Assembly: GCA_021777035.1 (NCBI GenBank)
Contig: JAIQZR010000097.1
Location: 1 to 53,728 of the forward strand
Direction: 5' to 3'
Source of the DNA: Candidatus Scalindua sp.
GTDB lineage: Bacteria; Planctomycetota; Brocadiia; Brocadiales; Scalinduaceae
DNA: 53,728 nt
The translations under genes and the position numbers were made by a program. The notes beneath the pieces were generated by a model. That model did no database searches. It was not told the origin of the DNA and saw nothing but the letters and a program-made list of their open reading frames with translations. This document shows, one piece after another, positions 2,482-41,513 of the stretch. Positions within the stretch are counted from its first letter, which is position 1. The number at the start of each line of letters is the position of its first letter.

Positions 2482-5400
2482 ATGCTAACTTCTGACAACG
2501 CATTTCCCGAAAAGGAAAAGGACAATAAGGTGTTAATGGGTGTGCGTCCATTCCAGATAATGGCGCTTACGCCACCCGGGTTGCCTGATCCGTCTATCGC
2601 AATCGCTGCAAGTAGGGCCGGGGGAGTTGGAATATTGGACTTGGAGTATGCTAAGGATATCAATGTTGCTGTTCGCAGCATAAAGAAGATGGTTAAGCAT
2701 ACAACTAGTGCTTGCGGTATAAAACTTAATGGCCAAGATGGTTCTTTTATAAACCATCTTGCTTCAGATCTTCCGGAAGCCATTGGTTACATAATAATCA
2801 CTCTTTGTAAGCCTGAAGAGTTGAAAAAATACGTTAATGATTTTCATCTTCACGACTGCCAAGTGATCCTTGAAATTACAACACTTGAACAAGCTTTACT
2901 TGGTGAAAGATGTGGTGTTGATGGTCTCATTGCAAAAGGTAATGAGTCTGCAGGGATAGTAGGAGAAAAGACGTCATATATTCTGCTCCAGCAAGTATGT
3001 TCTCAAATATCACTGCCGGTTTGGGCTCAGGGTGGTGTCGGTTTGCATACTGCTGCTGCCTGCTATACAGCTGGGGCCGCCGGAATAGTATTAGATTCGC
3101 AGCTTCTCTTGACAAAAGAGTCCTCCATACCAGACGATTTAAAGCAAGATATTGGTAGGATGGATGGAACCGATACTCTCTGTTTGAACGGTAGTACAAT
3201 GTGTTTTCGATTTTATAAACGTAGAGGTGTCCAGAATGTTGCTACAGAAGAGTTTAATACTTTAGAAAAAACATTAGAAAAAGACCCCGAGAAAGAATTT
3301 AATGTTCTGTCCCAATGGCATCAGCATATTAGGGGCGATATATCTTGGGATAATAAAACTTCGTCTATTTGGTTGCTTGGTCAGGATGTGTTTCTTGCTG
3401 TACCTTTTGCTAAACGTTATCAAACAGTTGGTTCTGTTTTTTGCGCTTTCAGGCAATCTATTGATGACCACATTAATTTAGCAAGGGGATTAAATATCTT
3501 CAACAAAGATTCTTCACTTGCAAAATCACATGGTACTCTTTATCCGATTGTTCAGGGGCCTATGGCACAGGTAAGTGATAACGCACTTTTCATACTAAGT
3601 GTTGCAGAATCCGGAGCTCTTCCTTTTGTTGCTCTATCCAAACTTAAAGGAGATCAAGTGGATGTTCTCCTTAAAGAAGTCACAGATCTTATCGGAGGCA
3701 GACCATGGGGTGTTGCCGTTTTGGGATTCAACAAAAGTGATTTGCTAGAATCTCAGATGAAGGCCGTGTCTACTTATTCCCCTGATTATGCAATTGTGGC
3801 GGGAGGTATGCCGAGCCAAGTTGCAGCCCTGGAGGCAAATGGCGTAAAAACTTATGTGCATGTGCAAACTCCTGGGATCATGGACATGTTCATTGACAAT
3901 GGCGTAAAAAGATTTATTTTTGAAGGAAGAGAGTGTGGGGGGCATATAGGGCCTAGATCAAGCTTTGTTCTTTGGGAAGATATGGTTGGCAAGTTACTAG
4001 ATTTATTGAAGAAATCTAAAGAAGAGGACATTGAGAAGTTCCATATATTATTTGCTGGAGGTATACATGACGCTATGTCTGCCGCTATGGTGGCTTCTAT
4101 TGCTACTCCACTTGTTAAACTGGGTGTGCGTGTCGGTGTTGTCTTGGGTACGGCATATTTTTTTACAAATGAAATAATCGAATCCGGTGCAATTGTTAAG
4201 GGATTTCAGAGCAATGCCTTGAAATGTTCTAAAACGTATATTCTTGAGAGTGGCCCTGGACATGCAATAAGATGCTGCAAGACGCCCTTTGTAGAGGTTT
4301 TCGAAAATGAAAAGATTAAGATGAGATCTGAGGGGCTTCCTTCAGACCAGATAGGCATAGAACTTGACAAACTTGTACTTGGGAAATTACGTGTTGCATC
4401 CCGAGGTGTAATGCGCGGCTCTACATCTAAATCAAATGATAAGAAGATGGGCTCCCTGATTACACTTAACGAGAAAGAACAACACGAAGAGGGGATTTAC
4501 ATGGTAGGTCAACTTGCGGCGTTGCGTAATAAGAAAACAAGTATCAGTGCACTTCATAATGACGTTGCAGTTAAGTCTGCTAATATCCTTTCATCACAAT
4601 CAGTTGATATAAGAAGTGAATCTGTTAGTACTCGAAAACAAAACCCAACTGATGTAGCGATTATTGGTATGTCATGTATGTTTCCAAAGGCGAAAAATCT
4701 CTCTGCGTATTGGGAAAATATTTTGAATAGAGTAAATGCAATTTCCGAGATACCGTCTAATCGTTGGGACTGGAACCTGTATTTTGATAAAAATAAAAAA
4801 GCCAAAGATAAAATTTATTCTAGATGGGGAGGATTTCTTGAAGATATACCTTTTGACCCACTGAAATATGGAATGCCCCCTAATTCTCTTAGTTCTATTG
4901 AGCCCTTACATCTTATGACACTCGAAGTTGTAAATGCGGCCCTAAAGGATTCAGGTTATGATAATAGAGAATTTAACAGAGAAAAAACATCAGTAATCCT
5001 GGGCACTGGCGGTGGTATAGGCGACCTGGGACAGGATTATATCGTTAGGTCATCATTGCCTCTCTATTATAATGGTAATTCAGATAACGCTTTAAAACGA
5101 TTACCGGAGTGGACAGAAGATTCTTTTCCGGGAATTTTAATGAACGTTTTGGCCGGACGGGTAGCAAACCGTTTTAATCTTGGCGGAGTTAATCATACAG
5201 TAGATGCAGCCTGTGCATCATCTTTAGCTGCATTATACGATGGCGTCAAAGAGTTGGAAACCGGTAATAGTGATATGGTAATTACAGGTGGTGTTGATGC
5301 TGGCCAGAGCCCATTCACTTATCTATGTTTTAGCAAGACGCATGCCTTGTCTCCACGAGGCTTATGCCAGGTGTTTGATGAAAAAGCTGATGGAACCGTG

Positions 5401-8400
5401 ATTAGTGAAGGATTGGCGGTTGTTATATTAAAACGCCTATCAGATGCAGAACGTGATGGTGACCGCATCTATGCTGTTATAAAATCGGTGGTGGGTTCAA
5501 GTGACGGACGAGGAAAAAGCATGACCGCGCCATGTCCTGAAGGTCAGTTAATGGCACTCAAGAAAGCATACGCCAAGGCTGGGTTTTCACCATCTACCAT
5601 GGAGCTGTTAGAAGCTCACGGCACAGGTACGGTTGTTGGAGACCAAGTTGAGTCCGAATCGGCTGCTCAATTACTTGAAGGGAGCAATACTGTTAGCCAG
5701 AATTGTGCTATTGGATCAGTCAAATCTATGATAGGACATACTAAAGGTGCTGCTGGAATGGCTGGGCTAATAAAAGCGTCTCTCTCGCTCTACCACAAAA
5801 TGCTACCACCTACAATGGGAATAGATAAACCAAACTCAAAAACAAATTTTCTTAAAGGGCCTCTTTATCTAAATACGGAAGTACGTCCATGGTTTAGAGA
5901 TGACAAACATCCACGTCGTGCTGGTGTTAACGCCTTTGGTTTTGGAGGTTCTAATTTCCATGCTGCTTTAGAAGAATATAGAGGTAGTTTCATGAAAAGC
6001 GATGAGACTGCTATTAAAAAAGTATGGCCATGTGAACTTCTATTGTGGGCCAGTCACTCTCGTGACGAACTAACTTCTACATTGGAATTTGTCTTACAAT
6101 CCCTTACAAAAGATATTGTTCCTTTATTAGGTGATATTGCCTTTACATTACAAAAGACCTTTAGAGATAAAACAAAACAAAAGGAAAATGCTTTCTTAAG
6201 GCTTGCAATTGTGACAATATCTTTAGAAGACCTTAGAGAAAAATTGGAGATTGTTTGCCGTACGCTTCGTGATCCAAAATCCGGTAATATTTCTGATCAG
6301 AGAGGGGTTTATTTAACTAACAAACTGCCTATCGAGTCCGGTAAAATTGCATTCCTTTTCCCAGGTCAAGGGTCTCAATATGTCAATATGCTTCGAGAGC
6401 TAGCCGTATTATTTCCGGAAATACGTAAAACTTTTGAACATGCAGATTCTGTTCTAAAAAATATTTTTCCAGAGCGAATGAGTAAATATGTTTTTCCTCC
6501 TCCTCGTTTCAATATAGAGGATGAAAAAGAACAGAGATGTATATTGTCTAAGACTAATATTGCCCAGCCTGCGATAGGAGCTGCTTGTTGTGGAATGCTT
6601 AAATTGCTAAAAAAGATGAATATAAACCCGGATATGGTGGCAGGGCATAGTTACGGTGAATATGTCGCTTTATCTGTTGCAGGAGTGTTTGACGAAGAGA
6701 CTCTTTACGATATTTCTGAAACCAGGGGTAGACTGATTGTAGAATCATCAAATGAACAGGATCTCGGCACTATGGCAGTGGTAAAAGAAAGCGCCACAGA
6801 ACTAAGAAAACTCGTTAAGAAGATTAAAGGTGTAGTTATTGCCAATATCAATGCACCTAAACAAACCGTGATTTCAGGAAGTAGAAATGCTGTAGATAAG
6901 GCAAAGGAATTACTCGCGTCAAAAGGTATTTGTGTTCAGTCTATTCCTGTTTCAGCAGGATTCCACTCGCCTCTTGTTGCACCTGCAAAAAAGCGATTTG
7001 CCAATTATTTAAGTAAAATAGATTTTGCATCTCCAAAGATAGAGGTATTCTCCAACACCTTTGCAGCGCCATACGGTAAGACACAAGAGGAGATTAAATC
7101 TTGCCTGGCAGAACACATGGTGAGGCCGGTGGAATTTGTTAATGAGATAGAAGCAATGTATGACAGGGGGGCAAGGGTTTTCATTGAGGTTGGCCCTGGC
7201 AACGTACTCACTAATCTAACAACACAGATAATTGGAGATCGTCCTTCTCTCATAGTATCAACAGACATGCATGGAAATAAAGCACTTCCTCAGTTACTCA
7301 AGACTTTAGGGCAATTAGCCGTCAATGGGATTCCCCTATCGTTAGAACGACTTTATGAAGGACGGTTACTCAATAATATCGATATTAATTTCTTGAATGA
7401 AATTAGAAAAGAAGAGCTTTCTCCTACAACGTGGCTTGTAAATGGCAGCAACATCCGACCGGTCAGTAACAAAACAGCGCCTAAAGAAGTTAATAAGCTT
7501 ATTCTTAAAGAGAAAGAAATAATGAAATACCACAACCCTTCATCCGGATCGAAATCAACTGAGGTAACAGATAAACAGGAAAAACATACCAGTCGTCCTG
7601 TTGCAACACATAAATCACCAGAAAGCCAGAATACGTCAACTCACCAGCTCAGTGATAATCCTGATGTTGTTATGTATCAGTACCAGCAGCTTATGAATCG
7701 TTTCCTGGAAACACAAAAGAATATTATGTTGGCGTATCTTCAAGGCACTAAGCCGTCTAGTTTGAAAGATATGGCAGGCCCTTTTGAACTTCCACAAACT
7801 CGTACACGAACAGCACCGTCAATGGGGCCAGTTAAACCACAAAAACCGCTTGCTTCATCAATCACACCCGTTTCCAGAGACCAGGAGGTGCTAGGCAAAG
7901 AACACCTTGCGAAAGAGTTGCTTCGTATTACAAGCGATAAGACCGGTTACCCGACAGAGATGCTCAATCTTGATCTGGACATTGAATCGGACTTGGGCAT
8001 TGATTCAATCAAACGTGTGGAGATACTAAACTCCTTTGTGAAATGTGTACCGGAGAATGCACAACAAAAGATCCAAACATCTATGGATGATATATCCAGG
8101 CTGAAAACTTTGAATGCTATATTGAGTAAGACTGCAGAGTTGATATTATCAAAAGTCCAAGAATCAGATACGTCTTCAATTCCTCAAGGAAATGCTGAAA
8201 GACATTTAAATGATACACCATCTACACAAGAAGGTTTCAATAAAGATTACTTAATTAAAGAGTTGCTTCGTATTACAGGCGATAAGACCGGTTACCCGAC
8301 AGAGATGCTCAATCTTGATTTGGACATTGAATCGGACTTGGGCATAGATTCAATCAAACGTGTGGAGATACTAAACTCCTTTATGAAATGTGTACCGGAG

Positions 8401-10173
8401 AATGTACAACAAAAAATCCGGACATCTATGGATGATATATCCAGACTGAAAACTCTGAACGCTATTATGAGTAAAACGGAAGAGATTATATTGTCGGGGC
8501 CTTTAAAAGCAAGTAGTGAAAAAGAAATTACTCTCATCAACAAAGAGCGTCCTGTCTCTGCTAAAGAGAATGAAGACATAATCGTCCCGAGGTTTCTTTT
8601 GGAACCCTCTAAAATCTCTACACCCAAAGAAGAGATTCAACCTTTAAATGATGGTGTCTTTATTGTCACTGACGATACACGAGGCGTTGCTACTGCGTTG
8701 AAGAAAGAGATTAAAAAGCATGGGGGGCAGGTGGTCACTTTAAAGATGGGTTCTGCGCAAACAAATAAAAATGGTCAAACGTATACTGCCAACTTAAAAG
8801 ACCCTTTAGTTGTAGAAAGTTTGGTGAATGAAATACGTCACGACTACAACAAAATTATTGGACTTATACATCTACTGCCTCTGGCATCCTCAATTTCTTT
8901 CGACAAAATGGATTTAGAGACATGGAAGGATTGTCTCCAGATAGAGGTAAAAAGTTTCTTTTATCTTGCAAAATATCTGGAACCTGACCTTGTTGACTCC
9001 GGAGAAAAAGGTGGTGGATGGCTTATCGCAGCTACGGCATTAACAGAATGTTTAAATGGTAATGGTCTAAACGGAAACTATTTTGCTGGCCAGGCTGGCA
9101 TTGCAGGGTTGTTGAAGACCGTTGCACAAGAATGGACAGATGTCAGATGCAAAGCCGTTAATCTTGATATGACAAATTCTCCCATGATTTTGTCTAAACA
9201 ATTACTAGGAGAAATGGCCGCTAAAAATGGGCCTGTTGAGGTGAAATATAGTGGGTCAAATAGAATAGTATACAAAGCAAAATCTGCGCCTTTAAATCAG
9301 AAAACAAAGAGGAGGTTGCACATTGCTTCTGACTGGATCGTTTTGGTTACTGGTGGTGCTGTTGGTATTACGGCAGAAGTCGCCCATGAATTGGCGGTAG
9401 AATATCAGCCTACCCTGCTGCTAGTAGGGAGGTCACCGTTTCCGGAAGAAGATGAATCTCAACATACAGCTGGGCTTGTCTCGCCTAAAGAGATAAAATC
9501 CGCGTTGATTGAAAAACTGCGTTCCAGTGATGGAAATATCACACCGGCCAAAATTGAAGCAGAATACGCTCGGCTTTTAAAGGATAGAGAAATTCGTCAA
9601 AATATAGCGAAGATGCGGAATGCCGGAGCAAATGTTCATTACTATCAGACAGATGTGACTGATGAGAAGAGTTTTGGAAATCTAATTGATGAAATTTACC
9701 AGTCATACGGACGTCTGGACGGTGTAATTCATGGTGCTGGTATTATCGAGGATAAGCTTTTCAAAGACAAAACTTTAGACTCTTTTGACAGAGTATTTGA
9801 TACAAAAACAGATAGTTCATTTGTCTTGATACGCAAACTTCGGCCAGACTCATTAAAATTCCTTGCTTTCTTTACATCGGTAGCCGGTTGCTTTGGAAAT
9901 AGAGGTCAGTCTGATTATGCCGCGGCTAATGAGGTGGTTAATAAATTAGCCAAATACCTGGATCAACATTGGGCAGGTAGGGTGCTGGCCATTAATTGGG
10001 GGCCATGGGATAAAACCGGCATGGTTGCTCCTGAGATAAAGAAACAATTTATGGAAAGAGGTATTCAGTTGATTCCCCCTTCTGTTGGACGTTATATATT
10101 TGAACAAGAGTTGAGATGTGGTAACAAAGGTGACGTTGAGGTAGTAATAGGAGGTGGGCCATGGGGGATATAG
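2482..10173 (+). CDS. Giant synthase A: (PfaD-like)x2-KS-AT-ACP-ACP-KR
   Basis: 2563 residues, related to PfaA of polyunsaturated-fatty-acid and secondary-lipid synthases. Order: two FMN enoyl-reductase/nitronate-monooxygenase-like regions (about 20-250 and 350-640); KS (about 724-1165) with Cys911, His1046 (HGTGT) and His1086 (GHTKG); AT (about 1285-1600) with GQGSQ, Ser1390 in GHSYGEY and His1495; two ACPs with phosphopantetheine serines Ser1842 and Ser1957 in LGIDSIKRVEIL; KR (about 2010-2560) with a GGAVGI nucleotide loop and Tyr2479. KS, AT and KR look active. The first reductase-like copy has lost the ECGGH motif kept by the second (484-488). A DH is absent here and is supplied by synthase B. 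AGGA lies 7 bases before the ATG. The stop overlaps the start of synthase B. It should carry out iterative decarboxylative chain extension; chain length and starter are unknown. Confidence 0.93.
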   Translation: MLTSDNAFPEKEKDNKVLMGVRPFQIMALTPPGLPDPSIAIAASRAGGVGILDLEYAKDINVAVRSIKKMVKHTTSACGIKLNGQDGSFINHLASDLPEAIGYIIITLCKPEELKKYVNDFHLHDCQVILEITTLEQALLGERCGVDGLIAKGNESAGIVGEKTSYILLQQVCSQISLPVWAQGGVGLHTAAACYTAGAAGIVLDSQLLLTKESSIPDDLKQDIGRMDGTDTLCLNGSTMCFRFYKRRGVQNVATEEFNTLEKTLEKDPEKEFNVLSQWHQHIRGDISWDNKTSSIWLLGQDVFLAVPFAKRYQTVGSVFCAFRQSIDDHINLARGLNIFNKDSSLAKSHGTLYPIVQGPMAQVSDNALFILSVAESGALPFVALSKLKGDQVDVLLKEVTDLIGGRPWGVAVLGFNKSDLLESQMKAVSTYSPDYAIVAGGMPSQVAALEANGVKTYVHVQTPGIMDMFIDNGVKRFIFEGRECGGHIGPRSSFVLWEDMVGKLLDLLKKSKEEDIEKFHILFAGGIHDAMSAAMVASIATPLVKLGVRVGVVLGTAYFFTNEIIESGAIVKGFQSNALKCSKTYILESGPGHAIRCCKTPFVEVFENEKIKMRSEGLPSDQIGIELDKLVLGKLRVASRGVMRGSTSKSNDKKMGSLITLNEKEQHEEGIYMVGQLAALRNKKTSISALHNDVAVKSANILSSQSVDIRSESVSTRKQNPTDVAIIGMSCMFPKAKNLSAYWENILNRVNAISEIPSNRWDWNLYFDKNKKAKDKIYSRWGGFLEDIPFDPLKYGMPPNSLSSIEPLHLMTLEVVNAALKDSGYDNREFNREKTSVILGTGGGIGDLGQDYIVRSSLPLYYNGNSDNALKRLPEWTEDSFPGILMNVLAGRVANRFNLGGVNHTVDAACASSLAALYDGVKELETGNSDMVITGGVDAGQSPFTYLCFSKTHALSPRGLCQVFDEKADGTVISEGLAVVILKRLSDAERDGDRIYAVIKSVVGSSDGRGKSMTAPCPEGQLMALKKAYAKAGFSPSTMELLEAHGTGTVVGDQVESESAAQLLEGSNTVSQNCAIGSVKSMIGHTKGAAGMAGLIKASLSLYHKMLPPTMGIDKPNSKTNFLKGPLYLNTEVRPWFRDDKHPRRAGVNAFGFGGSNFHAALEEYRGSFMKSDETAIKKVWPCELLLWASHSRDELTSTLEFVLQSLTKDIVPLLGDIAFTLQKTFRDKTKQKENAFLRLAIVTISLEDLREKLEIVCRTLRDPKSGNISDQRGVYLTNKLPIESGKIAFLFPGQGSQYVNMLRELAVLFPEIRKTFEHADSVLKNIFPERMSKYVFPPPRFNIEDEKEQRCILSKTNIAQPAIGAACCGMLKLLKKMNINPDMVAGHSYGEYVALSVAGVFDEETLYDISETRGRLIVESSNEQDLGTMAVVKESATELRKLVKKIKGVVIANINAPKQTVISGSRNAVDKAKELLASKGICVQSIPVSAGFHSPLVAPAKKRFANYLSKIDFASPKIEVFSNTFAAPYGKTQEEIKSCLAEHMVRPVEFVNEIEAMYDRGARVFIEVGPGNVLTNLTTQIIGDRPSLIVSTDMHGNKALPQLLKTLGQLAVNGIPLSLERLYEGRLLNNIDINFLNEIRKEELSPTTWLVNGSNIRPVSNKTAPKEVNKLILKEKEIMKYHNPSSGSKSTEVTDKQEKHTSRPVATHKSPESQNTSTHQLSDNPDVVMYQYQQLMNRFLETQKNIMLAYLQGTKPSSLKDMAGPFELPQTRTRTAPSMGPVKPQKPLASSITPVSRDQEVLGKEHLAKELLRITSDKTGYPTEMLNLDLDIESDLGIDSIKRVEILNSFVKCVPENAQQKIQTSMDDISRLKTLNAILSKTAELILSKVQESDTSSIPQGNAERHLNDTPSTQEGFNKDYLIKELLRITGDKTGYPTEMLNLDLDIESDLGIDSIKRVEILNSFMKCVPENVQQKIRTSMDDISRLKTLNAIMSKTEEIILSGPLKASSEKEITLINKERPVSAKENEDIIVPRFLLEPSKISTPKEEIQPLNDGVFIVTDDTRGVATALKKEIKKHGGQVVTLKMGSAQTNKNGQTYTANLKDPLVVESLVNEIRHDYNKIIGLIHLLPLASSISFDKMDLETWKDCLQIEVKSFFYLAKYLEPDLVDSGEKGGGWLIAATALTECLNGNGLNGNYFAGQAGIAGLLKTVAQEWTDVRCKAVNLDMTNSPMILSKQLLGEMAAKNGPVEVKYSGSNRIVYKAKSAPLNQKTKRRLHIASDWIVLVTGGAVGITAEVAHELAVEYQPTLLLVGRSPFPEEDESQHTAGLVSPKEIKSALIEKLRSSDGNITPAKIEAEYARLLKDREIRQNIAKMRNAGANVHYYQTDVTDEKSFGNLIDEIYQSYGRLDGVIHGAGIIEDKLFKDKTLDSFDRVFDTKTDSSFVLIRKLRPDSLKFLAFFTSVAGCFGNRGQSDYAAANEVVNKLAKYLDQHWAGRVLAINWGPWDKTGMVAPEIKKQFMERGIQLIPPSVGRYIFEQELRCGNKGDVEVVIGGGPWGI
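7912..8485 (+). repeat. Near-identical tandem duplication of the ACP-coding segment
   Basis: Two copies, about 7912-8140 and 8257-8485, offset by exactly 345 bases (115 codons). By eye there are only about 15 differences in roughly 228 positions, including long runs without any synonymous change. Each copy encodes one ACP domain with its serine. Confidence 0.9.
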
Positions 10174-15137: not shown

Positions 15138-15138
15138 A

Positions 15139-15447
15139 ATGGAAAATAATAATAAATCGCAAATATTCACCAGAGAAGAAATTCTTAACGGTCTAATCGA
15201 AATTTTAAAAGACATGACCAGTGACTGGGACATGGAGTTTGATAATCCCATTGGAACTGATACAAAACTCATTAATGATCTTGGTTTTGAGTCCATAGAT
15301 ATTGTGCAGCTTGTTGTCGCTATCGAAGAGCGTTTTCGCTGTCGAAAAATGCCTTTTGAAGAAATTTTTATGGTTGATGGTAGATATGTTGATGAAATAC
15401 TGGTGCGAGATACAGTAGATTTCCTTTCTCGGCATATTATACAATAA
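15139..15447 (+). CDS. Free acyl carrier protein
   Basis: 102 residues with the ACP helix-2 motif L-G-F-E-S-I-D-I-V. Ser52 is the expected phosphopantetheine site. It is followed by acidic helices, as in FabF-partner and PKS ACPs. The start lies one base after the stop of synthase B, so it is in the same transcript and possibly translated by re-initiation. It could be the carrier used by synthase B, which lacks one, or the hand-off partner for release. It is distinct from the DSIKRVEIL-type ACPs inside synthase A. Confidence 0.88.
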   Translation: MENNNKSQIFTREEILNGLIEILKDMTSDWDMEFDNPIGTDTKLINDLGFESIDIVQLVVAIEERFRCRKMPFEEIFMVDGRYVDEILVRDTVDFLSRHIIQ

Positions 15448-15469
15448 ATAAAACAATAAAGGAGATATA

Positions 15470-17074: not shown

Positions 17075-17095
17075 AGGTTTAAATAGTTAAGAAAT

Positions 17096-18022: not shown

Positions 18023-18071
18023 AAATTCAAAATTTGGTATTTTTATGTTTTACATTTAAGGAGGTGTTTCG

Positions 18072-19112: not shown

Positions 19113-19123
19113 ACTAAACAAAA

Positions 19124-21529: not shown

Positions 21530-21581
21530 AATTATAACTCAAAATGAGAATGAATTATAGACCTTATTTTCTTACCCAGAA

Positions 21582-24002: not shown

Positions 24003-24131
24003 AATGTAATTAAACAATAAAAAAGTGGAATGAAGAGTGTTAGAATAAAGGTAATTTATCAGGCTTTCAATAATTACATTTTGTCAGCCGATTTCTTTAA
24101 ATATTTTCGTGGTTGAATGGAGGCAAGACTA

Positions 24132-26075
24132 ATGAAGAATATATTACTTATTAACCCAAGATACAATATGGAGACCCTGCGGGTTGCTGATGATAAACAG
24201 TTAGACACTAAAGCTGATAATTTGCCTCTCGGCCTGGCTACAGTAGCCGCTCTTACACCAGATGGTATTAATGTTGATATTTGGGATGAATTCGTTCGTC
24301 CCCCGATTATAGATGATACCCAGTTAAAAAAGAAGTACGATCTTGTAGGAGTTACAAGCTCCAGGGTCACGATGTTGCGTGCTAGGGAGATTGGCGCTTT
24401 TTTCAGGCAACGAGGTGTAACCGTTGTAATTGGGGGGCCTGGAGTTTCGGGCAGTCCTGACCGTTGTCGCGAATATTTTGATACTCTTATCATCGGTGAA
24501 GCCGAATTAATCTGGCCAAAGTTCGTTCGAGACTGGCAAACAGGTAACTATAGAGCGGAGTACAGACAGATTGAAAAACCTGACATTTTATTAAGTCCCT
24601 TACCTAAGTGGGAAAGTATCGTTGGGGACGTAAAAAAGTACGCCATGGGCGGTGTACAAACCACTCGTGGATGTCCTTTCGATTGTGAATTTTGTGATGT
24701 GGTATTCTTAAATGGACGACGGCAAAGACACAAAACTATTGAAAGAGTACTTGAAGAGGTTAGAGTCCTGGAGCAGTTGGGTATGTCAACCGTTTATTTT
24801 GCTGATGACAATTTAGTAGGTGATCATCCTTATGCAAAGGAGCTACTGCACGCGCTCATCCCCCTGAACAACTCTTTTGACAATCCACTGAAGTTTTCTA
24901 CTCAAGCGAGTATAGATGCCAGTAGAGATGATAAGCTTATGGAGCTGTTGGCAGATGCAAATTTTTATGAAATGCTTGTTGGTATAGAATCACCTAACAA
25001 AGAATCTCTTAAGGAAATGGGTAAGTTTAATAACTTGAAAGGAGATCTTGTTGAAGAGGTTCACAAAATACTTTCATATGGGATATCTGTTCGTGGAGCT
25101 TTGATTGGAGGCTTAGACCATGATGATATCGATATTTTCGATAGACACTTCGAATTTATCCAAAAATCGTTTCTGCCTTCTGTTTCACTGCACATGCTCA
25201 ATGCTCCTATAGGTACAAAGTTGTGGAGAAGATTGCGTGAAGAAGGGCGGGTCATAGATATATTCAAGATAACTGATAAGGTTACTAGAAGAATTATTAG
25301 CAATGTATTGCCCAAGCGTATGACCAGAGTAGAGCTTATGCAAGGATTTAGAAGTTTGTACGATAGAGTATTCAACTGGGAAAGTTTTAAGGAACGCATG
25401 TTTGGCTTTGTCTCAATTATCAATCGGCGTCCAAATGTGCAACAGGCAGAGGTGTCTATTCAGGAGTTGTTAAAATTGGGAACAACCATGAATGTTAGTC
25501 CGGAGGGGTGTAAAGCCATAAATGAGATTTTTAGATATACAGAGGAAAAAGCGCCTTATATGCTTGGCAGGGTAAAAGAGCTAGTCGTTCAGTTTACAAA
25601 GTATTCTGAAACAGCACGGGATCTTATTCCTAAGTTGGATCAACAGATAGAGCTTGAATCATCAGGGAAACTTACATTTGAACTGGACGACCGTCCACTT
25701 ACAGTTCCCGCAGGCTTTATGAAAGCATATAAGTCAATATTTCCGGACATACATCGTCATGCATATTTGGGCCTGACAGAAAAGGACAAGATATCAGAGG
25801 TACTAACCAGGGTTTTTGTGGATTTTCTCTTTCGGGAAAAGGACTTTATTCAGTTAGAAGATTACCACGTCTCTTTACTTAACAAAATTACTGATAAGGT
25901 TTGTGCCGAGTTTAACGAAAATTCACGTGAAAGACATATAATTGGTGAGACTGAGAATATAACCGTACCAAATGTAAAACGACTTAGACTAGGAGAAGAT
26001 ATCATTAAAAGTGTGGAACAAGAACTCATCAAACTCGTGCAAGCAGAAACTGAAAAACAAGAGATTATGAACTAA
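24132..26075 (+). CDS. B12-binding-type radical SAM protein 1
   Basis: 647 residues from the ATG at 24132. A longer frame opens at 24117, but GGAGG lies 8 bases before 24132 and the N-terminus MKNILLINP then matches the paralogue exactly. The N-terminal Rossmann region (PLGLATVAALTP, VVIGGPGV, GEAELIWP) is the cobalamin-binding type found in class B radical SAM methylases and HpnP/BchE-like enzymes. C181, C185 and C188 (C-x3-C-x2-C) bind the iron-sulfur cluster. FADDN and the region after it look like DUF4070-type proteins. About 150 extra residues at the C-terminus are shared with the paralogue. Likely role: methylation or C-C bond chemistry at an unactivated carbon. Substrate unknown. Confidence 0.9.
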   Translation: MKNILLINPRYNMETLRVADDKQLDTKADNLPLGLATVAALTPDGINVDIWDEFVRPPIIDDTQLKKKYDLVGVTSSRVTMLRAREIGAFFRQRGVTVVIGGPGVSGSPDRCREYFDTLIIGEAELIWPKFVRDWQTGNYRAEYRQIEKPDILLSPLPKWESIVGDVKKYAMGGVQTTRGCPFDCEFCDVVFLNGRRQRHKTIERVLEEVRVLEQLGMSTVYFADDNLVGDHPYAKELLHALIPLNNSFDNPLKFSTQASIDASRDDKLMELLADANFYEMLVGIESPNKESLKEMGKFNNLKGDLVEEVHKILSYGISVRGALIGGLDHDDIDIFDRHFEFIQKSFLPSVSLHMLNAPIGTKLWRRLREEGRVIDIFKITDKVTRRIISNVLPKRMTRVELMQGFRSLYDRVFNWESFKERMFGFVSIINRRPNVQQAEVSIQELLKLGTTMNVSPEGCKAINEIFRYTEEKAPYMLGRVKELVVQFTKYSETARDLIPKLDQQIELESSGKLTFELDDRPLTVPAGFMKAYKSIFPDIHRHAYLGLTEKDKISEVLTRVFVDFLFREKDFIQLEDYHVSLLNKITDKVCAEFNENSRERHIIGETENITVPNVKRLRLGEDIIKSVEQELIKLVQAETEKQEIMN

Positions 26076-26138
26076 TTTAAATATTTGAGAAGCAATAATA
26101 GAGAGAGATTAAACAACTTTCATAGGAAATGGAATGAT

Positions 26139-26924
26139 ATGAATCAAAACAAAGTAGATATTAATACTAGTTATGATAACATAATTGACGATCCTTTAAA
26201 TCAGGAATTTTATGATAACAGTGATTTTTTTAACTTTGGGTTTTGGCGTGAAAATACCAAGTCTGCAAAAGAGGCGTGTGAAAATTTGATGGAGGAACTA
26301 TTGGCTTGCATACCAAAAAAAACAGGGAATATACTAGATGTTGCCTGTGGTAAGGGTGCGACCACGCGCCATTTGTTAAAGTATTATAAACCGGAAAGAG
26401 TAACCGGTATCAATATTTCAGAAACACAACTGGATGTTTGCAAAAATAATGCGCCTAAATGTAAGTTTTCTTTGATGGATGCCACGGAACTTGATTTTAA
26501 TAAAAACACTTTTAATAATATTATCTGTGTCGAAGCTGCACAGCACTTCAGTACACGCAATAAATTCCTTGAAGAAGCCTATCGTGTCTTAAAACCGGGC
26601 GGGAAGATTGTACTTTCCGATATTCTGGCAAGCCGGTCAGTGTGTTACAGAGACACATCAATGTACCCTAAAGAGAATTATCTTGAAAATATAGAATCAT
26701 ACCATTCAATTTTAGAGAAAATTGGATTCAAAACAATACAGATACGTGATGAGACACGCGTCTGTTGGGGTGGAATGTATTCTAATAGAGAACGCTTTTT
26801 TAGGGATAAATTACAGAAAAATGAATTAAGTTATTTTGTTTTTAGAAAGTCAATGCTAAGATTATCTTTTTTAAATAATAACCTGACTAATTACGTATTA
26901 GTAAATGCAATAAAACCAAACTAA
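26139..26924 (+). CDS. Class I SAM methyltransferase with intact SAM loop
   Basis: 261 residues from the ATG at 26139 (AGGA upstream). The same frame extends to a TTG at 26085, 18 codons earlier, but that start has no ribosome site. The SAM loop reads N-I-L-D-V-A-C-G-K-G, which fits the D-x-(G/A)-x-G-x-G type. It is followed by TGINIS, MDATELDF and VLKPGGKIVLSD, the order of a UbiE/sterol/sarcosine-type methyltransferase. It is paralogous to the C-terminus of the propeller fusion and to the 30441 gene, and is the only one of the three with a normal loop. It sits between the two radical SAM genes and so may act on the same intermediate. Confidence 0.85.
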   Translation: MNQNKVDINTSYDNIIDDPLNQEFYDNSDFFNFGFWRENTKSAKEACENLMEELLACIPKKTGNILDVACGKGATTRHLLKYYKPERVTGINISETQLDVCKNNAPKCKFSLMDATELDFNKNTFNNIICVEAAQHFSTRNKFLEEAYRVLKPGGKIVLSDILASRSVCYRDTSMYPKENYLENIESYHSILEKIGFKTIQIRDETRVCWGGMYSNRERFFRDKLQKNELSYFVFRKSMLRLSFLNNNLTNYVLVNAIKPN

Positions 26925-27023
26925 ATGTGTTTGCCTAATCAAATGATAATGGTGCTATTTAAAAGTATTTAATGATATCAACCTGGCAATTTAAATACGT
27001 GATATTGTTGGCAGCATATCTGG

Positions 27024-27052
27024 TTGACATGTAATACGCTGTGCTCTTATGG
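27024..27052 (+). promoter_or_regulatory. Weak candidate internal promoter before the second radical SAM gene
   Basis: A perfect TTGACA (27024-27029) lies in the 214-base gap after the methyltransferase gene, but the best match to a -10 box 17 bases on is poor (TTATGG). Only the -35 element is convincing. Confidence 0.25.
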
Positions 27053-27138
27053 ATGGCGTCTAAATAATTGTCGAATTAATGTAATTATCGCATAAAGGGT
27101 GAGGCTACTCAAATCACTCAATTTAGATATTAATAGCA

Positions 27139-29055
27139 ATGAAAAATATATTACTAATTAATCCAAGTTATAAACTGGAAATCAGGTGGATCGTAAACGA
27201 AGGAGAAATTGACGTTAAAGCAGACTATATGCCGCTCGGATTAGCTACAGTGGCGGGACTTACTCCAGATGAGTATCATGTAGACATTTGGGATGAACTT
27301 GTCCGTGGCCCTATTGAGGAAAGTTCTTTAGCGTTAGAATATGACCTGGTTGGCGTTACTAGTCATAGTGCAAACTTAGGTCGAACACTAAAAATAGGAG
27401 GGTTTTTTCGGCAGCAGGGTTGCCTCATCGCAGTCGGTGGGCCAGGAGTTACTTCTAACCCGGATCGATGTCGTAAGCACTTTGACGTTCTCCTAATAGG
27501 AGAAGCTGAACTTATATGGCCCCAGTTTCTGCGCGAGTGGCAGTCCGGCAGCTACAAATCGGAATACCGACAAATTGAGAAACCTGATATTTCATTATCG
27601 AGCCCATTACCAAAGTGGGACAGCATTGCGTCTGATATAAAACGATATGCCATGGGTACTATTCAAACGACCCGTGGATGTCCTATTGATTGTGAGTTTT
27701 GTGATGTTATTTATCTTTATGGGAGGCGTCAGAGACATAAACGGATTGATCAGATACTTCAAGAGGTGCAAAACTTGCAGCGATTAGGCGTGAAAAATAT
27801 ATCTTTCAATGATGATAATTTTACAATTAATCACCGTATAGCAAAGGATGTATTGCAGGCACTCATTCCGAGGAATAACGAGTTTACTAAACCATTAAGG
27901 TTTATGACACAGCTAAGTATTGATATTGCGAGGGATGATGAGTTGCTTGAACTCTTGGCAAAAGCAAATTTTTATGAAGTGTTGATCGGTATTGAAACGC
28001 CAAACAAAGACTCTCTCAAGGAAATTGGGAAATATAATAATCTGAAGGGCGATCTAGTCGCAGAGGTTCACAAAGTACTCTCTTATGGTATAGCCGTACG
28101 TGGGGCCATGATTGTTGGTTTTGATCATGATGATGTCAGCATCTTTGATAGCCAATACAATTTTATACAGGAATGCTATATGCCTTCTATTTCTATGCAT
28201 ATGCTTAATGCTCCTGTGGGAACAAGGCTATGGAGACGATTGCGTGGAGAGGGACGAGTAATAGATGCATTTAGTATAGCGGATAAGTCGACACAACGTC
28301 TTTTCAACAACATTATTCCGAAACTTATGAGTCGTGTAGAGCTTATGCAGGGATTTCGGAATTTGTACGCTAAGTTGTTCACCTGGGAAAGTTTTAGGGA
28401 ACGAATGTTTGGTTTTATTTCACTAGTTTGCTACCATCCAGAAGTCTTACAGAAGAGAGAATCAATTAAGGATCTGCTTGATTTGGGGCCTGGCCTGGAT
28501 CTTGATACAGAGTCTTGCGAATCCATGGCAGAGATATTCAGATACACGGAACAGAAAGCCCCCCATCTTCTTGAAAGAGTAAAGGAACTAGTAGTTCAAT
28601 TTGTTAGGTATCGAGCATCGGCTTACGATTTTCTTCCGGGGTTGGACGAACAGATAAGACTTGAATCATCCAATAAAATCAAAATTAATTTAGACAAGCG
28701 GCCTGTTATGATACCTCAGGTCTTTAGAGATGCTTATAAATCGATATTTCCGGACGTCTATAGTCGTGTTTATTTAAAGTTAGCAGAGAAGGACAAGACG
28801 CCAGAGGTTCTTGTGGACGCTCTTGTGGAATTTCTTGTCCACGAGGAAGGTTTCAGCCGGTTGGAAGAATACCATATTGCTTTGCTTAACGAAATTGCAG
28901 ATAAAACTTGTGAGAGGTTTAATGACCAATCAACTAAAGAATGTGTATCGTCCGAACTTTCTAATACATCAATACCTAAAACTTCTCACTTACAACTTAG
29001 CGAAGACGTTCTGAAAGGTGTGGAGCAGGAACTTTTTAAACTTGTACAGGTATGA
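27139..29055 (+). CDS. B12-binding-type radical SAM protein 2
   Basis: 638 residues, a close paralogue of radical SAM protein 1 along the whole length. Its cluster cysteines fall at the same numbers (181, 185, 188 in RGCPIDCEFCDV). It keeps PLGLATVAGLTP, VGGPGV, GEAELIWP, FNDDN and the shared 150-residue tail with ELVVQF and SIFPDVY. There is no strong ribosome site directly before the ATG. As two genes with the same architecture in one run, they may act one after the other at different carbons or as a heterodimer. Confidence 0.9.
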   Translation: MKNILLINPSYKLEIRWIVNEGEIDVKADYMPLGLATVAGLTPDEYHVDIWDELVRGPIEESSLALEYDLVGVTSHSANLGRTLKIGGFFRQQGCLIAVGGPGVTSNPDRCRKHFDVLLIGEAELIWPQFLREWQSGSYKSEYRQIEKPDISLSSPLPKWDSIASDIKRYAMGTIQTTRGCPIDCEFCDVIYLYGRRQRHKRIDQILQEVQNLQRLGVKNISFNDDNFTINHRIAKDVLQALIPRNNEFTKPLRFMTQLSIDIARDDELLELLAKANFYEVLIGIETPNKDSLKEIGKYNNLKGDLVAEVHKVLSYGIAVRGAMIVGFDHDDVSIFDSQYNFIQECYMPSISMHMLNAPVGTRLWRRLRGEGRVIDAFSIADKSTQRLFNNIIPKLMSRVELMQGFRNLYAKLFTWESFRERMFGFISLVCYHPEVLQKRESIKDLLDLGPGLDLDTESCESMAEIFRYTEQKAPHLLERVKELVVQFVRYRASAYDFLPGLDEQIRLESSNKIKINLDKRPVMIPQVFRDAYKSIFPDVYSRVYLKLAEKDKTPEVLVDALVEFLVHEEGFSRLEEYHIALLNEIADKTCERFNDQSTKECVSSELSNTSIPKTSHLQLSEDVLKGVEQELFKLVQV

Positions 29056-29357
29056 ATAATGAGTTGGCCCCGTGCTACTGTCTCTTCAGCTTCCTACAGT
29101 AATATGTAAGCTGAGGAATTAATTATATTTTCAATTATTCATATTAGAGGCTGGCTTTTTACAACTTAGTGGGTAGCAACTACTATAAGTAAAACAAGTT
29201 GCAGGAGTGAGCTTCTTCAGTATAAAGATTTTAAATATTGAACTGGTGTACCGCCAACATGCAAAACGCTTGTGAAGGATTTGAACATGCGGGTCGTTCT
29301 GATGGATATTGAAGATTGAAATAATATTGCAAACAAGGAGAGGAGTAGTTAACTCAT
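29056..29357. other. Intergenic region with one imperfect hairpin
   Basis: About 300 bases. TCAGCTT (29086-29092) can pair with AAGCTGA (29108-29114), but no T-run follows, so it is a poor terminator. No coding frame or promoter is supported. Confidence 0.35.
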
Positions 29358-30374
29358 TTGGAAGACTTTATTCCAAGAATCAAAAAATCAGGAGGGCAAG
29401 TATATCCTAAATTAATGTTGGCACGAATTTATTTTAAGAATGGAGACTATAGCAGGACAATTGCTGAATGTCGTAATGCTCTGGAAATAAATCCACGGAC
29501 ATCTTCCGCTCATTTGATGATTGCTTTAGCCTTTTATAAAGAAGGACATTACTCTGAAGCAGTAGCATCCTCTAAAATGGCGTTAAGTATCAATTTTAGT
29601 ATGTCAAAAGCTCATTTGTTGATAAGTAGTATATATAAGGAGCAAGGTAAATTGGCAGATGCAATCACTGAGTGCAAGATGGCAATAAACGCCAGTCCCA
29701 GGAATGCCTTATCTCATCTTTCTTTAGGAGAACTTTATCTTGGGCAAAATCTCTATGATGAGGCGGTTGATGCCTTACGTACTGCCGTAACGTTAAATAA
29801 AAAACTGACTAATGCGCGATACAAGATCGTCTATATTTATCTCAAACAGAGCAGGCAGACGGAAGCTGTTGAGGAATTAGAGAGAGCACTGAGGCTTAGT
29901 ACGGAAACTGCCAGATTACATATAATTCTTGGTGATATTTACATGGCACGTCAAAACCATTCAGAAGCGCTAATAGAGTATCAAAAAGAACTACGTCTTT
30001 TTCCACAATCGGCAGAAGCGTATCACAAATCTGGCGAGGCATATATAAAATTGGATCAGTATAAAGAGGCTATTACCGTACTGAACAAGGCGTTTCAAAT
30101 TAATCCTAAGCAGGCAGAATCAGCAGAACTGCTTGGTACAGTTTATTTAAAACTAGGCAAATTAAATAAGGCTTCCTTACACTATCGCTCAGCATTAAAA
30201 TTGAATTCTCAATTAGCTGAAGCACATGCCGGTTTGGGAAAAATCTATACGTTGCAAGAACATTATTCAAAAGCGGTATCCGAATATTATTCAGCTCTTA
30301 AGATTATTGGTTGTGGTAAATTAGACTTACCTGAACCATTAATAAAAAAAACTATTAGTTTTTCAGATAGTTAA
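29358..30374 (+). CDS. TPR protein 1 (nine repeats)
   Basis: 338 residues, start TTG with AGGAG 12 bases upstream. Nearly the whole chain is tetratricopeptide repeats of 34 residues. I count nine, each with the A/G-x-x-Y and late P marks (for example YFKNGDYSRTIAECRNALEI, YKEGHYSEAVASSKMAL). No signal peptide, membrane segment or enzyme domain is present. TPR arrays bind proteins, so it may hold the enzymes of this run together. It shares its design, though not obvious close identity, with the TPR protein two genes on. Confidence 0.85.
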   Translation: MEDFIPRIKKSGGQVYPKLMLARIYFKNGDYSRTIAECRNALEINPRTSSAHLMIALAFYKEGHYSEAVASSKMALSINFSMSKAHLLISSIYKEQGKLADAITECKMAINASPRNALSHLSLGELYLGQNLYDEAVDALRTAVTLNKKLTNARYKIVYIYLKQSRQTEAVEELERALRLSTETARLHIILGDIYMARQNHSEALIEYQKELRLFPQSAEAYHKSGEAYIKLDQYKEAITVLNKAFQINPKQAESAELLGTVYLKLGKLNKASLHYRSALKLNSQLAEAHAGLGKIYTLQEHYSKAVSEYYSALKIIGCGKLDLPEPLIKKTISFSDS

Positions 30375-30440
30375 AAAAAATTAATAGTAACTCATTATTA
30401 TTCTTATTAGTCATCTATTTAATTTTAGGGAGATTCTAAA

Positions 30441-31394
30441 TTGGTCAAATCAAAGGAGTTGAATCCAAAGCCGAAGAAGAGTGTAAGCAAACAGGTTTCG
30501 AAGCCGAAGAAGAGTGTAGGCAAACAGGTTTCACTGCTAGTAAAGAGTGTAGAGGAAAGGGATTCTAAAGCGAATAAGAAGGAAATGGGAGAATTGGTTC
30601 TAAACAGAAAAGGGCAATATGGTGGAAAACTTGGCGAAATAACAAAAACTCAAGGCGATACTAAACCAATATTCATGGAGTATTATGGCAACAGCGATTT
30701 AATTAATTGGGGCTATTGGTATGAGGATACCAAGGATCAAAAAGAAGCTTGTGGAAATCTGATGGAAGAGTTGTTGGCCTTTATACCTAAAAAAACAGGA
30801 AATATCCTGGATGTTGCGTCTGAAAATAGTTCTTCTTCACACTATTTATTAAAATATTTTAAGCCTGAAAAGATAACTGGTATTAGCACTTCCGGAACCC
30901 AACTGGAGATATATAAGAAAAAGTCACCTGGTAGTAAATTTCTATTGATGGAACCTACAAACCTTGATTTTAAAGAGGCTTCATTCGCAAATGTTATTTG
31001 CGTAGAAGGAGCACCTCGCTTCAGGACACGCAACAAGTTTATCGAGGAAGCCTATCGTGTTCTAAAACCGCGTGGTAAACTCATTCTTACAGACATAATG
31101 GCTAATCAAAACATTTTTAAAGAGGGAACACAATTTCCTAAGGAGAACTATTTGGAAAATATTGAATCATACCGTTCTCTCTTGAAAAAGATTGGATTCC
31201 GTAAAGTGGAGATTCGTGATGCACTCCACTCTTGTTGGAAAGGAATGTATTATAACTTTATGCGGTTCTTAAAAAAGAAGACTGAAGAGAGGGAATTAAG
31301 GTTTTTTGCATCAAAAATAATTAATAATAAACTTTTTATCTTTGATCAGAATTTATCCGGTTATTTGTTAATTGTTGCAGAAAAACCTGAGTAA
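30441..31394 (+). CDS. Methyltransferase-like protein with broken SAM loop
   Basis: 317 residues from a TTG preceded by AGGGAG. A basic N-terminal tail holds a duplicated KPKKSVxKQVS unit (residues 10-31). The main part matches the 26139 methyltransferase closely (YYGNSDLINWGYW, NLMEELLAFIPKKTGNILDV, FIEEAYRVLKP, KIGFRKVEIRD). The SAM loop is changed from DVACGKGATT to DVASENSSSS, and the PGG turn to PRG. Loss of the glycines suggests no SAM binding. It could be a non-catalytic partner of the intact copy, or a binding protein. It sits between the two TPR genes. Confidence 0.82.
   Translation: MVKSKELNPKPKKSVSKQVSKPKKSVGKQVSLLVKSVEERDSKANKKEMGELVLNRKGQYGGKLGEITKTQGDTKPIFMEYYGNSDLINWGYWYEDTKDQKEACGNLMEELLAFIPKKTGNILDVASENSSSSHYLLKYFKPEKITGISTSGTQLEIYKKKSPGSKFLLMEPTNLDFKEASFANVICVEGAPRFRTRNKFIEEAYRVLKPRGKLILTDIMANQNIFKEGTQFPKENYLENIESYRSLLKKIGFRKVEIRDALHSCWKGMYYNFMRFLKKKTEERELRFFASKIINNKLFIFDQNLSGYLLIVAEKPE
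30468..30533 (+). repeat. 33-bp direct repeat in the N-terminal tail
   Basis: Two adjacent 33-base units (30468-30500 and 30501-30533) differ at two positions by eye. They encode KPKKSVSKQVS and KPKKSVGKQVS. Confidence 0.85.
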
Positions 31395-31445
31395 ATAAAC
31401 ATTTTTAATCAATAAAAACAATTTGTTGAAAAAGGAGGATTTATA

Positions 31446-32510
31446 ATGAATGTCACCGATAAGTGGGTTCCTGGAATGACTAAGCAGGATGGTGGGAAGA
31501 TTGGAGGACACATTAAAGTTGCAATGAATTACCTAATGCAAAAGCGGCCTGATGAAGCAATTAAAGAAATTGATATGGCACTTGATGTGGAACCAAATAG
31601 TGCCATTGCTCGTACATTATTGGGGAGTGCTTACTATCAGCAAAATAAATTTGAGCAAGCGGTTGAAGAAGCGAAGGCTGTTCTATCAAGTGGCGGTAAC
31701 CAAATAGGCGCACATCTATTATTAGCAAAGATTTATTCTGAACAGTTGAGAGATTATGAAGCTGAGGCTGAATTACAAGCAGCATCACGCTTAAATCCAA
31801 ATCAACAACAGGGAAATAGGATTAGATCGCAGTTAGCAAGGATATACAGTAAGCAAAAGAAATATGACAAAGCGGAGAATGAATATCAGATCATGGTTGA
31901 GAATAATCCGAAAATGAAAATGGTACAAATGTCTCTCGCTAAAACATATATTATGCAGGAAAAATATGAGGATGCTATTCGCGAACTTAAGGGCATTTTG
32001 GAAAATAATCCTGAGTGGCATAATGTGCGTCGAATGCTAGGTAATGTGTATTTTAGACAGAAAAGATATGATGATGCATCTGCTGAGATTAGGATGTACT
32101 TGGACAGTACTAATAAAGCGGAAGATAGCAAGAAGCCCGGCTTATTTAAACGCCGTTCACCGCAAAAGGGATATGCACATTTTGTTTTGGGTTGCATTTG
32201 TATGGAGCAAGGCAATTATGGTGAAGCCATAAAGGAACTCCGTTTCGCCCTACAACAAAATCAACGTATGGCTATTGCTCATCAAAAAATAGGTAATATC
32301 CTTTTTGAGCAAGGCGATATACATAATTCAATTGTTGAGTTCAAAGCTGCGATAACATTGCAGCCACGTTCAGGATCTGCTTACGTGGATCTTGGTCATG
32401 CGTTTGTTAAGGCACGTAAAGAAGATGAAGCTATTGAAGCATACGAGAAAGCGCTGAAGATTAATCCTGAGTTAGAAGAGGCCCAGACGGCATTGGACAA
32501 ACTAAAGTAA
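31446..32510 (+). CDS. TPR protein 2 (about nine repeats with a basic insert)
   Basis: 354 residues with a strong AAAGGAGG ribosome site. Tetratricopeptide repeats cover the chain. I count about nine, including a classic last unit (YVDLGHAFVKARKEDEAIEA). A basic insert KKPGLFKRRSPQK breaks the pattern between repeats six and seven. There is no signal peptide. As the last gene of the long run it is likely a scaffold or adaptor. The strong ribosome site suggests it is made in larger amounts than its neighbours. Confidence 0.87.
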   Translation: MNVTDKWVPGMTKQDGGKIGGHIKVAMNYLMQKRPDEAIKEIDMALDVEPNSAIARTLLGSAYYQQNKFEQAVEEAKAVLSSGGNQIGAHLLLAKIYSEQLRDYEAEAELQAASRLNPNQQQGNRIRSQLARIYSKQKKYDKAENEYQIMVENNPKMKMVQMSLAKTYIMQEKYEDAIRELKGILENNPEWHNVRRMLGNVYFRQKRYDDASAEIRMYLDSTNKAEDSKKPGLFKRRSPQKGYAHFVLGCICMEQGNYGEAIKELRFALQQNQRMAIAHQKIGNILFEQGDIHNSIVEFKAAITLQPRSGSAYVDLGHAFVKARKEDEAIEAYEKALKINPELEEAQTALDKLK

Positions 32511-35984: not shown

Positions 35985-35996
35985 TGTATTTATCAA

Positions 35997-40217: not shown

Positions 40218-41513
<1,296 letters not shown>

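Follow-up and report, generated by a model that had tools for sequence, protein, structure and literature searches.

A gene island of Candidatus Scalindua, probably acquired horizontally and encoding the synthesis and export of a sulfated long-chain lipid

The contig JAIQZR010000097.1 of a Candidatus Scalindua sp. assembly (GCA_021777035.1) was analyzed over its whole length of 53,728 bases, which is called the window here (contig C201 of the genome G000). The assembly comprises 4.16 Mb, with listed values of 95% completeness and 5.5% contamination. The listing of open reading frames (ORFs) together with Pfam and NCBIfam showed 14 consecutive ORFs on the plus strand at positions 2482-32510. 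Ten of the 13 intergenic gaps are no longer than 66 nt (one of them is a 13-nt overlap) and the others measure 114, 214, and 302 nt. The 14 genes belong to 11 families, with the radical S-adenosylmethionine (SAM), methyltransferase, and tetratricopeptide repeat (TPR) genes being paired. The initial annotation had proposed this one-strand run with mostly tiny gaps as a candidate biosynthetic system; both the run and the enzyme identities given for it agreed with the ORFs and with Pfam. The run is longer than had been proposed, however: the sulfotransferase gene at 1471-2043 and the HlyD gene at 32765-34996 also belong to it, as judged from the clusters of relatives. The features of the locus are as follows.

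1471-2043, plus strand: short sulfotransferase of the 3'-phosphoadenosine 5'-phosphosulfate (PAPS) type, 190 aa (Pfam Sulfotransfer_3/_1)
2482-10173, plus strand: Pfa-type megasynthase, 2563 aa, with two FabK/NMO-like enoyl reductase (ER) domains, ketosynthase (KS), acyltransferase (AT), two acyl carrier protein (ACP) domains, and ketoreductase (KR) (TIGR02813, Pfam)
10161-15137, plus strand: partner synthase, 1658 aa, with KS, AT, dehydratase (DH), and phosphopantetheinyl transferase (PPTase) (Pfam, NCBIfam)
15139-15447, plus strand: discrete ACP (Pfam)
15470-17074, plus strand: phosphodiesterase of the alkaline phosphatase superfamily (PF01663)
17096-18022, plus strand: alpha/beta hydrolase, a candidate releasing thioesterase (Pfam)
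18072-19112, plus strand: polyhydroxybutyrate (PHB)-depolymerase-like esterase with a hydrophobic N-terminus (NF050058, below cut-off)
19124-21529, plus strand: tandem family III CoA-transferase (Pfam, alignments)
21582-24002, plus strand: beta-propeller fused to a class I methyltransferase (predicted structure, fold search, SAM motif)
24117-26075, plus strand: B12-domain radical SAM enzyme 1 with a helical C-terminal tail (Pfam, NCBIfam, fold search)
26085-26924, plus strand: class I SAM methyltransferase with an intact motif (Pfam, motif)
27139-29055, plus strand: radical SAM enzyme 2 (59% identity to enzyme 1, tree)
29358-30374, plus strand: TPR protein 1 (Pfam)
30441-31394, plus strand: methyltransferase with a degenerate SAM motif (LDVASENSSSS), from the family of the 26085 gene
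31446-32510, plus strand: TPR protein 2 (Pfam)
32765-34996, plus strand: membrane protein with a HlyD adaptor domain (Pfam, NCBIfam)
35070-35996, minus strand: second sulfotransferase, a core cassette member (Pfam)
36718-38211, plus strand: condensation-domain-like acyltransferase within the island (Pfam)
38288-40102, plus strand: FkbH-like protein, the last gene ahead of the border (Pfam, NCBIfam)
40109-40149, no strand: right border of the island, where DNA synteny with three congeners starts (DNA alignment)

A large form of the same cluster was found in three gammaproteobacterial genomes, titled Halioglobus japonicus BC5_1 (G417), Halioglobus sp. HKST-UBA220 (G416, on three contigs), and Gammaproteobacteria Ust_6 (G415). 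Of the 14 window genes, 13 have homologs in each of the three clusters. Counted by family this makes 10 of the 11, as the paired genes of the window share their matches; among the ten are the propeller-methyltransferase fusion, the radical SAM enzymes, and the tandem CoA-transferase. The gene order in H. japonicus is radical SAM A, megasynthase, two methyltransferases, radical SAM B, partner synthase, ACP, phosphodiesterase, hydrolase, tandem CoA-transferase, HlyD (reverse), TPR, and propeller-methyltransferase, followed, with changes of strand, by a condensation-type acyltransferase, a carboxylesterase, and a short sulfotransferase. The TPR protein that neighbours the fusion in each of the three relatives is 31-33% identical to TPR protein 1 and just 23-25% identical to TPR protein 2, matches of low specificity. 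The short sulfotransferase of the window is 49-50% identical to those in the H. japonicus and Ust_6 clusters, and no homolog of it was found in the examined parts of G416. The condensation-type proteins of two gammaproteobacterial clusters belong to the same Pfam family as that of the window, without clear sequence homology.

A smaller set of these genes recurs more widely. The propeller alignment found 54 loci in the GTDB collection, of which 46 were analyzed and eight Hydrogenedentota loci were set aside. Partner genes were counted within 10-kb flanks bounded by contig ends, and the 46 loci contained the hydrolase (33), the HlyD adaptor (32), the second sulfotransferase (30), the phosphodiesterase (28), the partner synthase (28), the ACP (26), the megasynthase (20), and the PHB-like esterase (17). 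At least five of these eight core partners were present in 29 of the 46 close propeller loci, which are labelled Pseudomonadota, Verrucomicrobiota, Nitrospirota, Thermodesulfobacteriota, Planctomycetota, Actinomycetota, and Myxococcota (seven phyla; most loci are contigs of metagenome-assembled genomes, and the labels may include binning errors). By record title, the strains with the small cassette include Neptuniibacter, Roseivivax, Frigidibacter, and Lysobacter. Outer-membrane efflux proteins of two families accompany the propeller in 8 and 6 of the 46 loci (three members were checked with Pfam). Eight housekeeping genes of the right part of the window were found in none of the 54 loci, and the condensation-type and FkbH-like proteins had no BLAST match in any of them. 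The set-aside Hydrogenedentota loci (L096, L099-L103, L105, and L106) carry distant propeller homologs (27-32%), and none of the eight had a cassette partner in the examined flanks.

The linkage of the run and its inheritance largely as a unit are thus well supported: with 13 of 14 genes together in three clusters and at least five of eight partners in 29 of 46 loci, the parts are mostly not independent in relatives. The view of the run as one system holds for this conserved core and has to be loosened for the rest. The CoA-transferase was found in two of the 46 loci, TPR protein 1 in three, and a radical SAM enzyme in one; as most cassette loci are without them, the radical SAM, CoA-transferase, and TPR genes are an optional layer on the cassette.

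The synthase core consists of the megasynthase, the partner synthase, and the discrete ACP, which is 53-62% identical to the ACPs of related clusters. The megasynthase passed the NCBIfam PfaA model TIGR02813 (1205.1 bits, cut-off 1010.1), and the partner synthase alone stayed below the cut-off of this model (659.3 bits). A PfaD-type enoyl reductase was indicated by Pfam (NMO, 98.5 bits in two stretches) and by the match of FabK structures to residues 35-278; the second half was matched weakly (residues 440-605, E 8.6e-5). KS, ACP, and KR stand together with tandem ACPs by Pfam. The Cys-His-His residues are kept in the KS of both synthases, GHSxG and His in both AT domains, and the KR Tyr motif as well as the DH and PPTase motifs in the window synthases, all of which we take to be the catalytic residues. 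The window has two DSI-type ACP motifs, one of which was aligned in Ust_6 and in the congener G010. In H. japonicus, the partner synthase has no PPTase and a separate PPTase gene lies close by.

The accessible text of Shulse and Allen (2011; PMC3098273) describes 20 types of Pfa-like clusters, 14 of them with uncharacterised products, and ties a PfaA-type KS with tandem ACPs to fatty acyl products. Like the window, their secondary-lipid synthases (Types A-T) have a PfaA-like KS-AT-ACP-KR arrangement with tandem ACPs, carry DH, FabK/NMO-type ER, and PPTase in adjoining genes, and show a patchy occurrence with transfer between phyla. The window differs from them in its N-terminal tandem of two fused ER domains and in the second synthase, in which a single, active-looking KS is followed by AT in place of the KS-CLF pair of the canonical Types A, B, and F. 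It also differs in the recurring phosphodiesterase/propeller/sulfotransferase/adaptor set, which is not mentioned in the accessible part of their text on cluster diversity. The thraustochytrid polyunsaturated fatty acid synthase with its ERb/ERc heterodimer likewise has two FabK-like ER domains per synthase, but these are located on two proteins (PMC13311796, accessible text), whereas both ERs of the window lie on one chain. Because the PfaA model was passed and the core fits the synthases of Shulse and Allen, its predicted class, a Pfa-type secondary-lipid synthase, is well supported. The initial annotation knew of no described pathway with this combination of genes. This is true of the open literature searched (subscription papers and supplements were outside the search), which yielded no described cluster of the same composition, including the accessible text of PMC5383146, PMC9902471, PMC8406957, PMC4790861, and PMC13311796; it is not true of the synthase core, which is of a known kind.

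Downstream of the core, the phosphodiesterase keeps TPPAW (nucleophile-type) and metal-ligand motifs in four clusters, residues to which we assign these roles presumptively. By sequence it had no match in the PDB at E 0.01, and a plasmid search gave 59 records, all with less than 60% identity and haloarchaeal among the matches listed. The alpha/beta hydrolase, a putative thioesterase, keeps GHSFGG and a GHF His motif in the four clusters, and the HlyD proteins are without HExxH in all four. The PHB-like esterase scored slightly below the NF050058 cut-off (144.8 bits, cut-off 150). By Pfam, two family III domains in tandem make up the CoA-transferase. Its catalytic position is occupied by Gln in the N half, as read from alignments to SUGCT, YfdE, and 9fn0_A, and by Asp in the C half, as read from those to YfdW and 9fn0_B, and the window, H. 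japonicus, and Ust_6 are alike in this; the Asp is presumably the catalytic residue. In Ust_6, the two halves are separate genes. The same BbsEF-type arrangement is seen in benzylsuccinate CoA-transferase (PDB 9fn0): the N half, without the catalytic Asp, matches its subunit A, and the C half, with the Asp, its subunit B. The differences are that the halves are fused in the window and H. japonicus, and that the setting here is biosynthetic.

The CxxxCxxC motif was invariant in eight radical SAM sequences. Together with a B12-binding domain, it assigns the window enzymes to class B, with enzyme 1 passing the PF02310 cut-off of 32.1 (42 bits) and enzyme 2 remaining under it (28.9 bits). Like the class B enzymes AprD4, MgmA, OxsB, TsrM, CysS, and TokK, they combine an N-terminal B12-type Rossmann domain with a CxxxCxxC barrel, and they differ from these in a helical C-terminal tail of ~190 residues. 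The two enzymes are 59% identical and sisters in the tree (100/99), which marks them as duplicated locally; the gammaproteobacterial types A and B split earlier. The radical SAM core profile was unspecific, as all 62 genomes of the order were matched; among the matches listed, the tail was covered only in the two window copies. In the family of G417, radical SAM matches at E 1e-150 were found in two of 140 genomes, G416 and G417 themselves. A relative from the order with a 7.6-Mb genome (G021; contigs C18, C128, C140, and others) has 16 B12-radical SAM profile matches at E <=1e-60, three of them in a row on C128.

The SAM motif of the free methyltransferase encoded at 26085 is intact, and that of the 30441 gene is degenerate; the latter looks like a decayed duplicate. 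The initial annotation had argued from degenerate partners and TPR proteins to a physical multienzyme assembly. Decayed methyltransferases are indeed present, but the N half of the CoA-transferase reflects a conserved heterodimer-like arrangement as in benzylsuccinate CoA-transferase and not decay, so this argument fails in part. Judging from the domain content, docking may still take place via the TPR proteins and the propeller fusions.

In the predicted structure of the propeller itself, 38 of the 49 ten-residue blocks between residues 21 and 510 had a pLDDT of at least 80. The propeller had no Pfam match and, by sequence, no match in the PDB at E up to 1. The fold search listed 50 chains with many functions, all scoring 25.6-28.9; as the listed chains score alike, no function, such as that of the Friedel-Crafts alkylating enzyme CylK or of virginiamycin B lyase, was drawn from the fold. 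The SAM motif of the fused methyltransferase is degenerate in the window and intact in the gammaproteobacteria, and the same fusion is present in the loci L053, L054, and L094. A plasmid search with the fusion gave one methyltransferase at 27%. A second kind of fusion was observed in Roseivivax lentus (L062:9956-12574), where the propeller is joined to an NAD-dependent epimerase/dehydrogenase. That the propeller is joined to a methyltransferase in one kind of fusion and to a dehydrogenase in the other suggests a substrate-holding or catalytic module common to tailoring enzymes.

The contig is not a stray one, since its CTP synthase is 85-90% identical to those of 12 congeners. The DNA alignment with the congeners G004, G008, and G010 begins at 40,109-40,149, between the FkbH-like gene and enolase, and continues through a syntenic block of enolase, DivIC, ProA, OmpA, permease, PyrG, KdsB, and SurA. 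All window DNA left of ~40.1 kb is absent from the corresponding site in the examined stretches of the three congeners. As the synteny stops left of enolase, the left part of the window is an island at that site; it is at least 40 kb long, and its left end lies beyond the window. The other flank of the congener site was found on contig C197 of G000, the right end of which runs into a sigma-70-like gene (by eye); the right end of the window cuts this gene as well. The block from enolase to this gene (40109-53728 plus C197) seems to be inverted relative to G008, with the island at one inversion breakpoint and ~6.3 kb at the other (by eye encoding MgtE-like, radical SAM, NtrC-like regulator, and HMA domain proteins).

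The small form also occurs within the genus, in the congener G010 (C4:178061-203592), whose propeller and sulfotransferase share as much as 81% identity with records of Spongiibacteraceae and Desulfobulbaceae, which points to a recent transfer across phyla; its counterpart of the second sulfotransferase of the window is 41% identical to the latter. The phosphodiesterase tree (35 rows) grouped the window with Ust_6, both Halioglobus clusters, and the locus L095 (100/99), and G010 with Nitrospira and Brocadia (92/82), then with a Spongiibacteraceae record (96/92). The propeller tree (59 rows) placed the window with L053, L054, and L094 (97/100) and G010 with Brocadia (99/93). Since the window and G010 stand apart in both trees, two forms that differ in their history exist within the genus. 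By border, identities, and trees, we read the island as acquired horizontally, with transfer between phyla. Its occurrence near home is sparse: the propeller cassette was found in two of 392 sampled genomes of the phylum (own included), with the Brocadia genome G058 also carrying it. The tandem-ER synthase was present in 7 of 59 relatives, again counting the genome itself. The locus L066 (Candidatus Brocadia MAG_8, JABWAQ010000073.1) has the same gene layout as G058:C109. A third form was observed in the family f5 (G022:C30, G028:C6, G030:C1, and G032:C1), comprising a tandem-ER synthase, an ACP, and 2-3 phosphodiesterase homologs; it has no propeller match, the partner synthase is without KS in three of the four, and a radical SAM homolog lies between the phosphodiesterases in two of the four.

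In our favored reading, the island fairly probably encodes a pathway that was acquired horizontally and makes a long-chain lipid that is exported, sulfated, and probably C-methylated. The gene content, the motifs, the linkage, the transfer between phyla, and the border are observations; the product and every chemical step given here are what we infer from them. The synthase pair and the discrete ACP would assemble malonyl units into an acyl chain on ACPs that are charged by the built-in PPTase, while KR, DH, and the tandem ER would set the oxidation pattern. The B12-domain radical SAM enzymes would act on unactivated carbons of the chain while it is bound to its carrier, with methylation as the most likely modification, and the intact free methyltransferase could add more methyl groups. 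The alpha/beta hydrolase would release the chain, and the fused BbsEF-like CoA-transferase would turn the free acid back into an activated CoA ester that can be used in esterification, with the condensation-type acyltransferase as a possible esterification enzyme. Sulfate would be added by the sulfotransferases, the product would be exported by the HlyD-type adaptor (in other clusters with an outer-membrane efflux protein), and the membrane-anchored esterase would finish it outside. More tentatively, the cluster might stand for an undescribed, transferable class of exported lipids, marked by a tandem-ER Pfa synthase, C-methylation on the carrier, a half-dead fused CoA-transferase, and sulfation, in which the propeller would be a new tailoring family travelling with the synthase in at least seven phyla, with an anammox bacterium among its carriers.

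Several observations weigh against this reading. By BLAST, a homolog of the PHB-like esterase is absent from all three gammaproteobacterial clusters, two of which bear another esterase family, and the second sulfotransferase, the condensation-type protein, and FkbH have no homolog in any of the three. L095, the nearest phosphodiesterase relative outside the gammaproteobacteria, has two genes that are short-chain dehydrogenases by sequence and no CoA-transferase between the hydrolase and the propeller, in which gene its sequence ends. Four or fewer partners were found in 17 of the 46 loci; some of these, such as L063, L067, and L073, show no synthase although their flanks extend ~10 kb to either side, so a tie of the propeller to the synthase does not hold everywhere. 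The possible binning errors, the unspecific TPR matches (23-33%), and the sub-threshold B12-binding match of enzyme 2 point the same way. Finally, C-methylation is uncertain because, among solved folds, the radical SAM enzymes come nearest to AprD4, which is a dehydratase, not a methylase.

On this last point rests the alternative that the cluster is the same and its radical SAM enzymes are AprD4-like radical dehydratases or deoxygenases acting on a polyol chain. We regard it as unlikely, though a serious contender, given that the next fold families (MgmA, OxsB, TsrM, CysS, and TokK) are of the cobalamin type with four methylases among them, and that enzyme 1 passes the Pfam cut-off for B12 binding. 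The two AT and two active-looking KS domains, the sulfotransferases, and the alpha/beta hydrolase would also suit a small polyketide antibiotic or signal in place of a lipid, with the sulfotransferases serving chain termination as in curacin, where sulfotransferase and thioesterase end the chain. Such a product is rather improbable, because the extracytoplasmic-looking esterases and the HlyD/efflux genes recur and because the PfaA-type KS and tandem ACPs are tied to fatty acyl products in the accessible text of PMC3098273. The low counts of the CoA-transferase, TPR protein 1, and radical SAM genes in the 46 loci, as well as the missing CoA-transferase of L095, would fit two unrelated adjoining units, a Pfa-type lipid cassette and an accidental catabolic CoA-transferase/radical SAM/TPR insertion; the same extra set is, however, interleaved with the synthase genes in three gammaproteobacterial clusters, and we consider such a chance juxtaposition very improbable.

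As the host order is anammox and the B12-radical SAM enzymes belong to the same superfamily as the ladderane candidates, a part in the ladderane lipid pathway was also weighed. The candidate cluster kuste3603-3608 shares with the window an anammox host and KS plus radical SAM genes, and differs in having type II fatty acid synthase genes with a phytoene-desaturase-like gene. A separate row of FabZ, FabF, FabF, phytoene-desaturase-like, and B12-radical SAM genes lies on contig C104 of G000 and resembles kuste3604-3608 of Kuenenia (PMC4790861, accessible text). The window enzymes reached 72 and 59.8 bits with TIGR04072 (cut-off 360); the candidate enzyme on C104 also fails at 86 bits, and this test is therefore weak. 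In the accessible text of Rattray (2009; PMC2649909), no polyketide synthase was found in K. stuttgartiensis. With the cassette in two of 392 genomes and the tandem-ER synthase in 7 of 59 relatives, and thus not throughout the anammox bacteria, and with a separate candidate row on C104, the ladderane pathway was rejected as scarcely credible. Hydrazine synthase (PF18582) was not found in G000; it was present in 39 of the 58 genomes searched (G000 counted as a miss) and in nine of the 12 other genomes of the genus. The anammox order of the host, Brocadiales, is therefore assigned from the relatives, from the gene layout common to L066 and G058:C109, and from the row on C104.

For the exported, sulfated lipid favored here, the cluster provides a defined gene set from which a lipid class not yet known could be found, with a named Halioglobus carrier of the large form. 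The propeller family, conserved and without a Pfam match, offers testable chemistry. The transfer indicates that bacteria of the anammox order acquire entire lipid pathways that stem from other phyla. This bears on the use of unusual lipids as anammox markers.

A promoter scan of 1200-2600 gave two sites, compared with 4.8 in shuffles. At positions 1-340, the contig begins within a minus-strand ORF that has a signal-like N-terminus and 78-nt tandem repeats coding for repeats rich in Lys, Glu, and Arg. Right of the border, the gene at 43507-45177 encodes a single protein that combines a von Willebrand factor A (VWA) domain with thrombospondin type 3 repeats and OmpA, and it aligns to the congeners in overlapping, repeat-like pieces.

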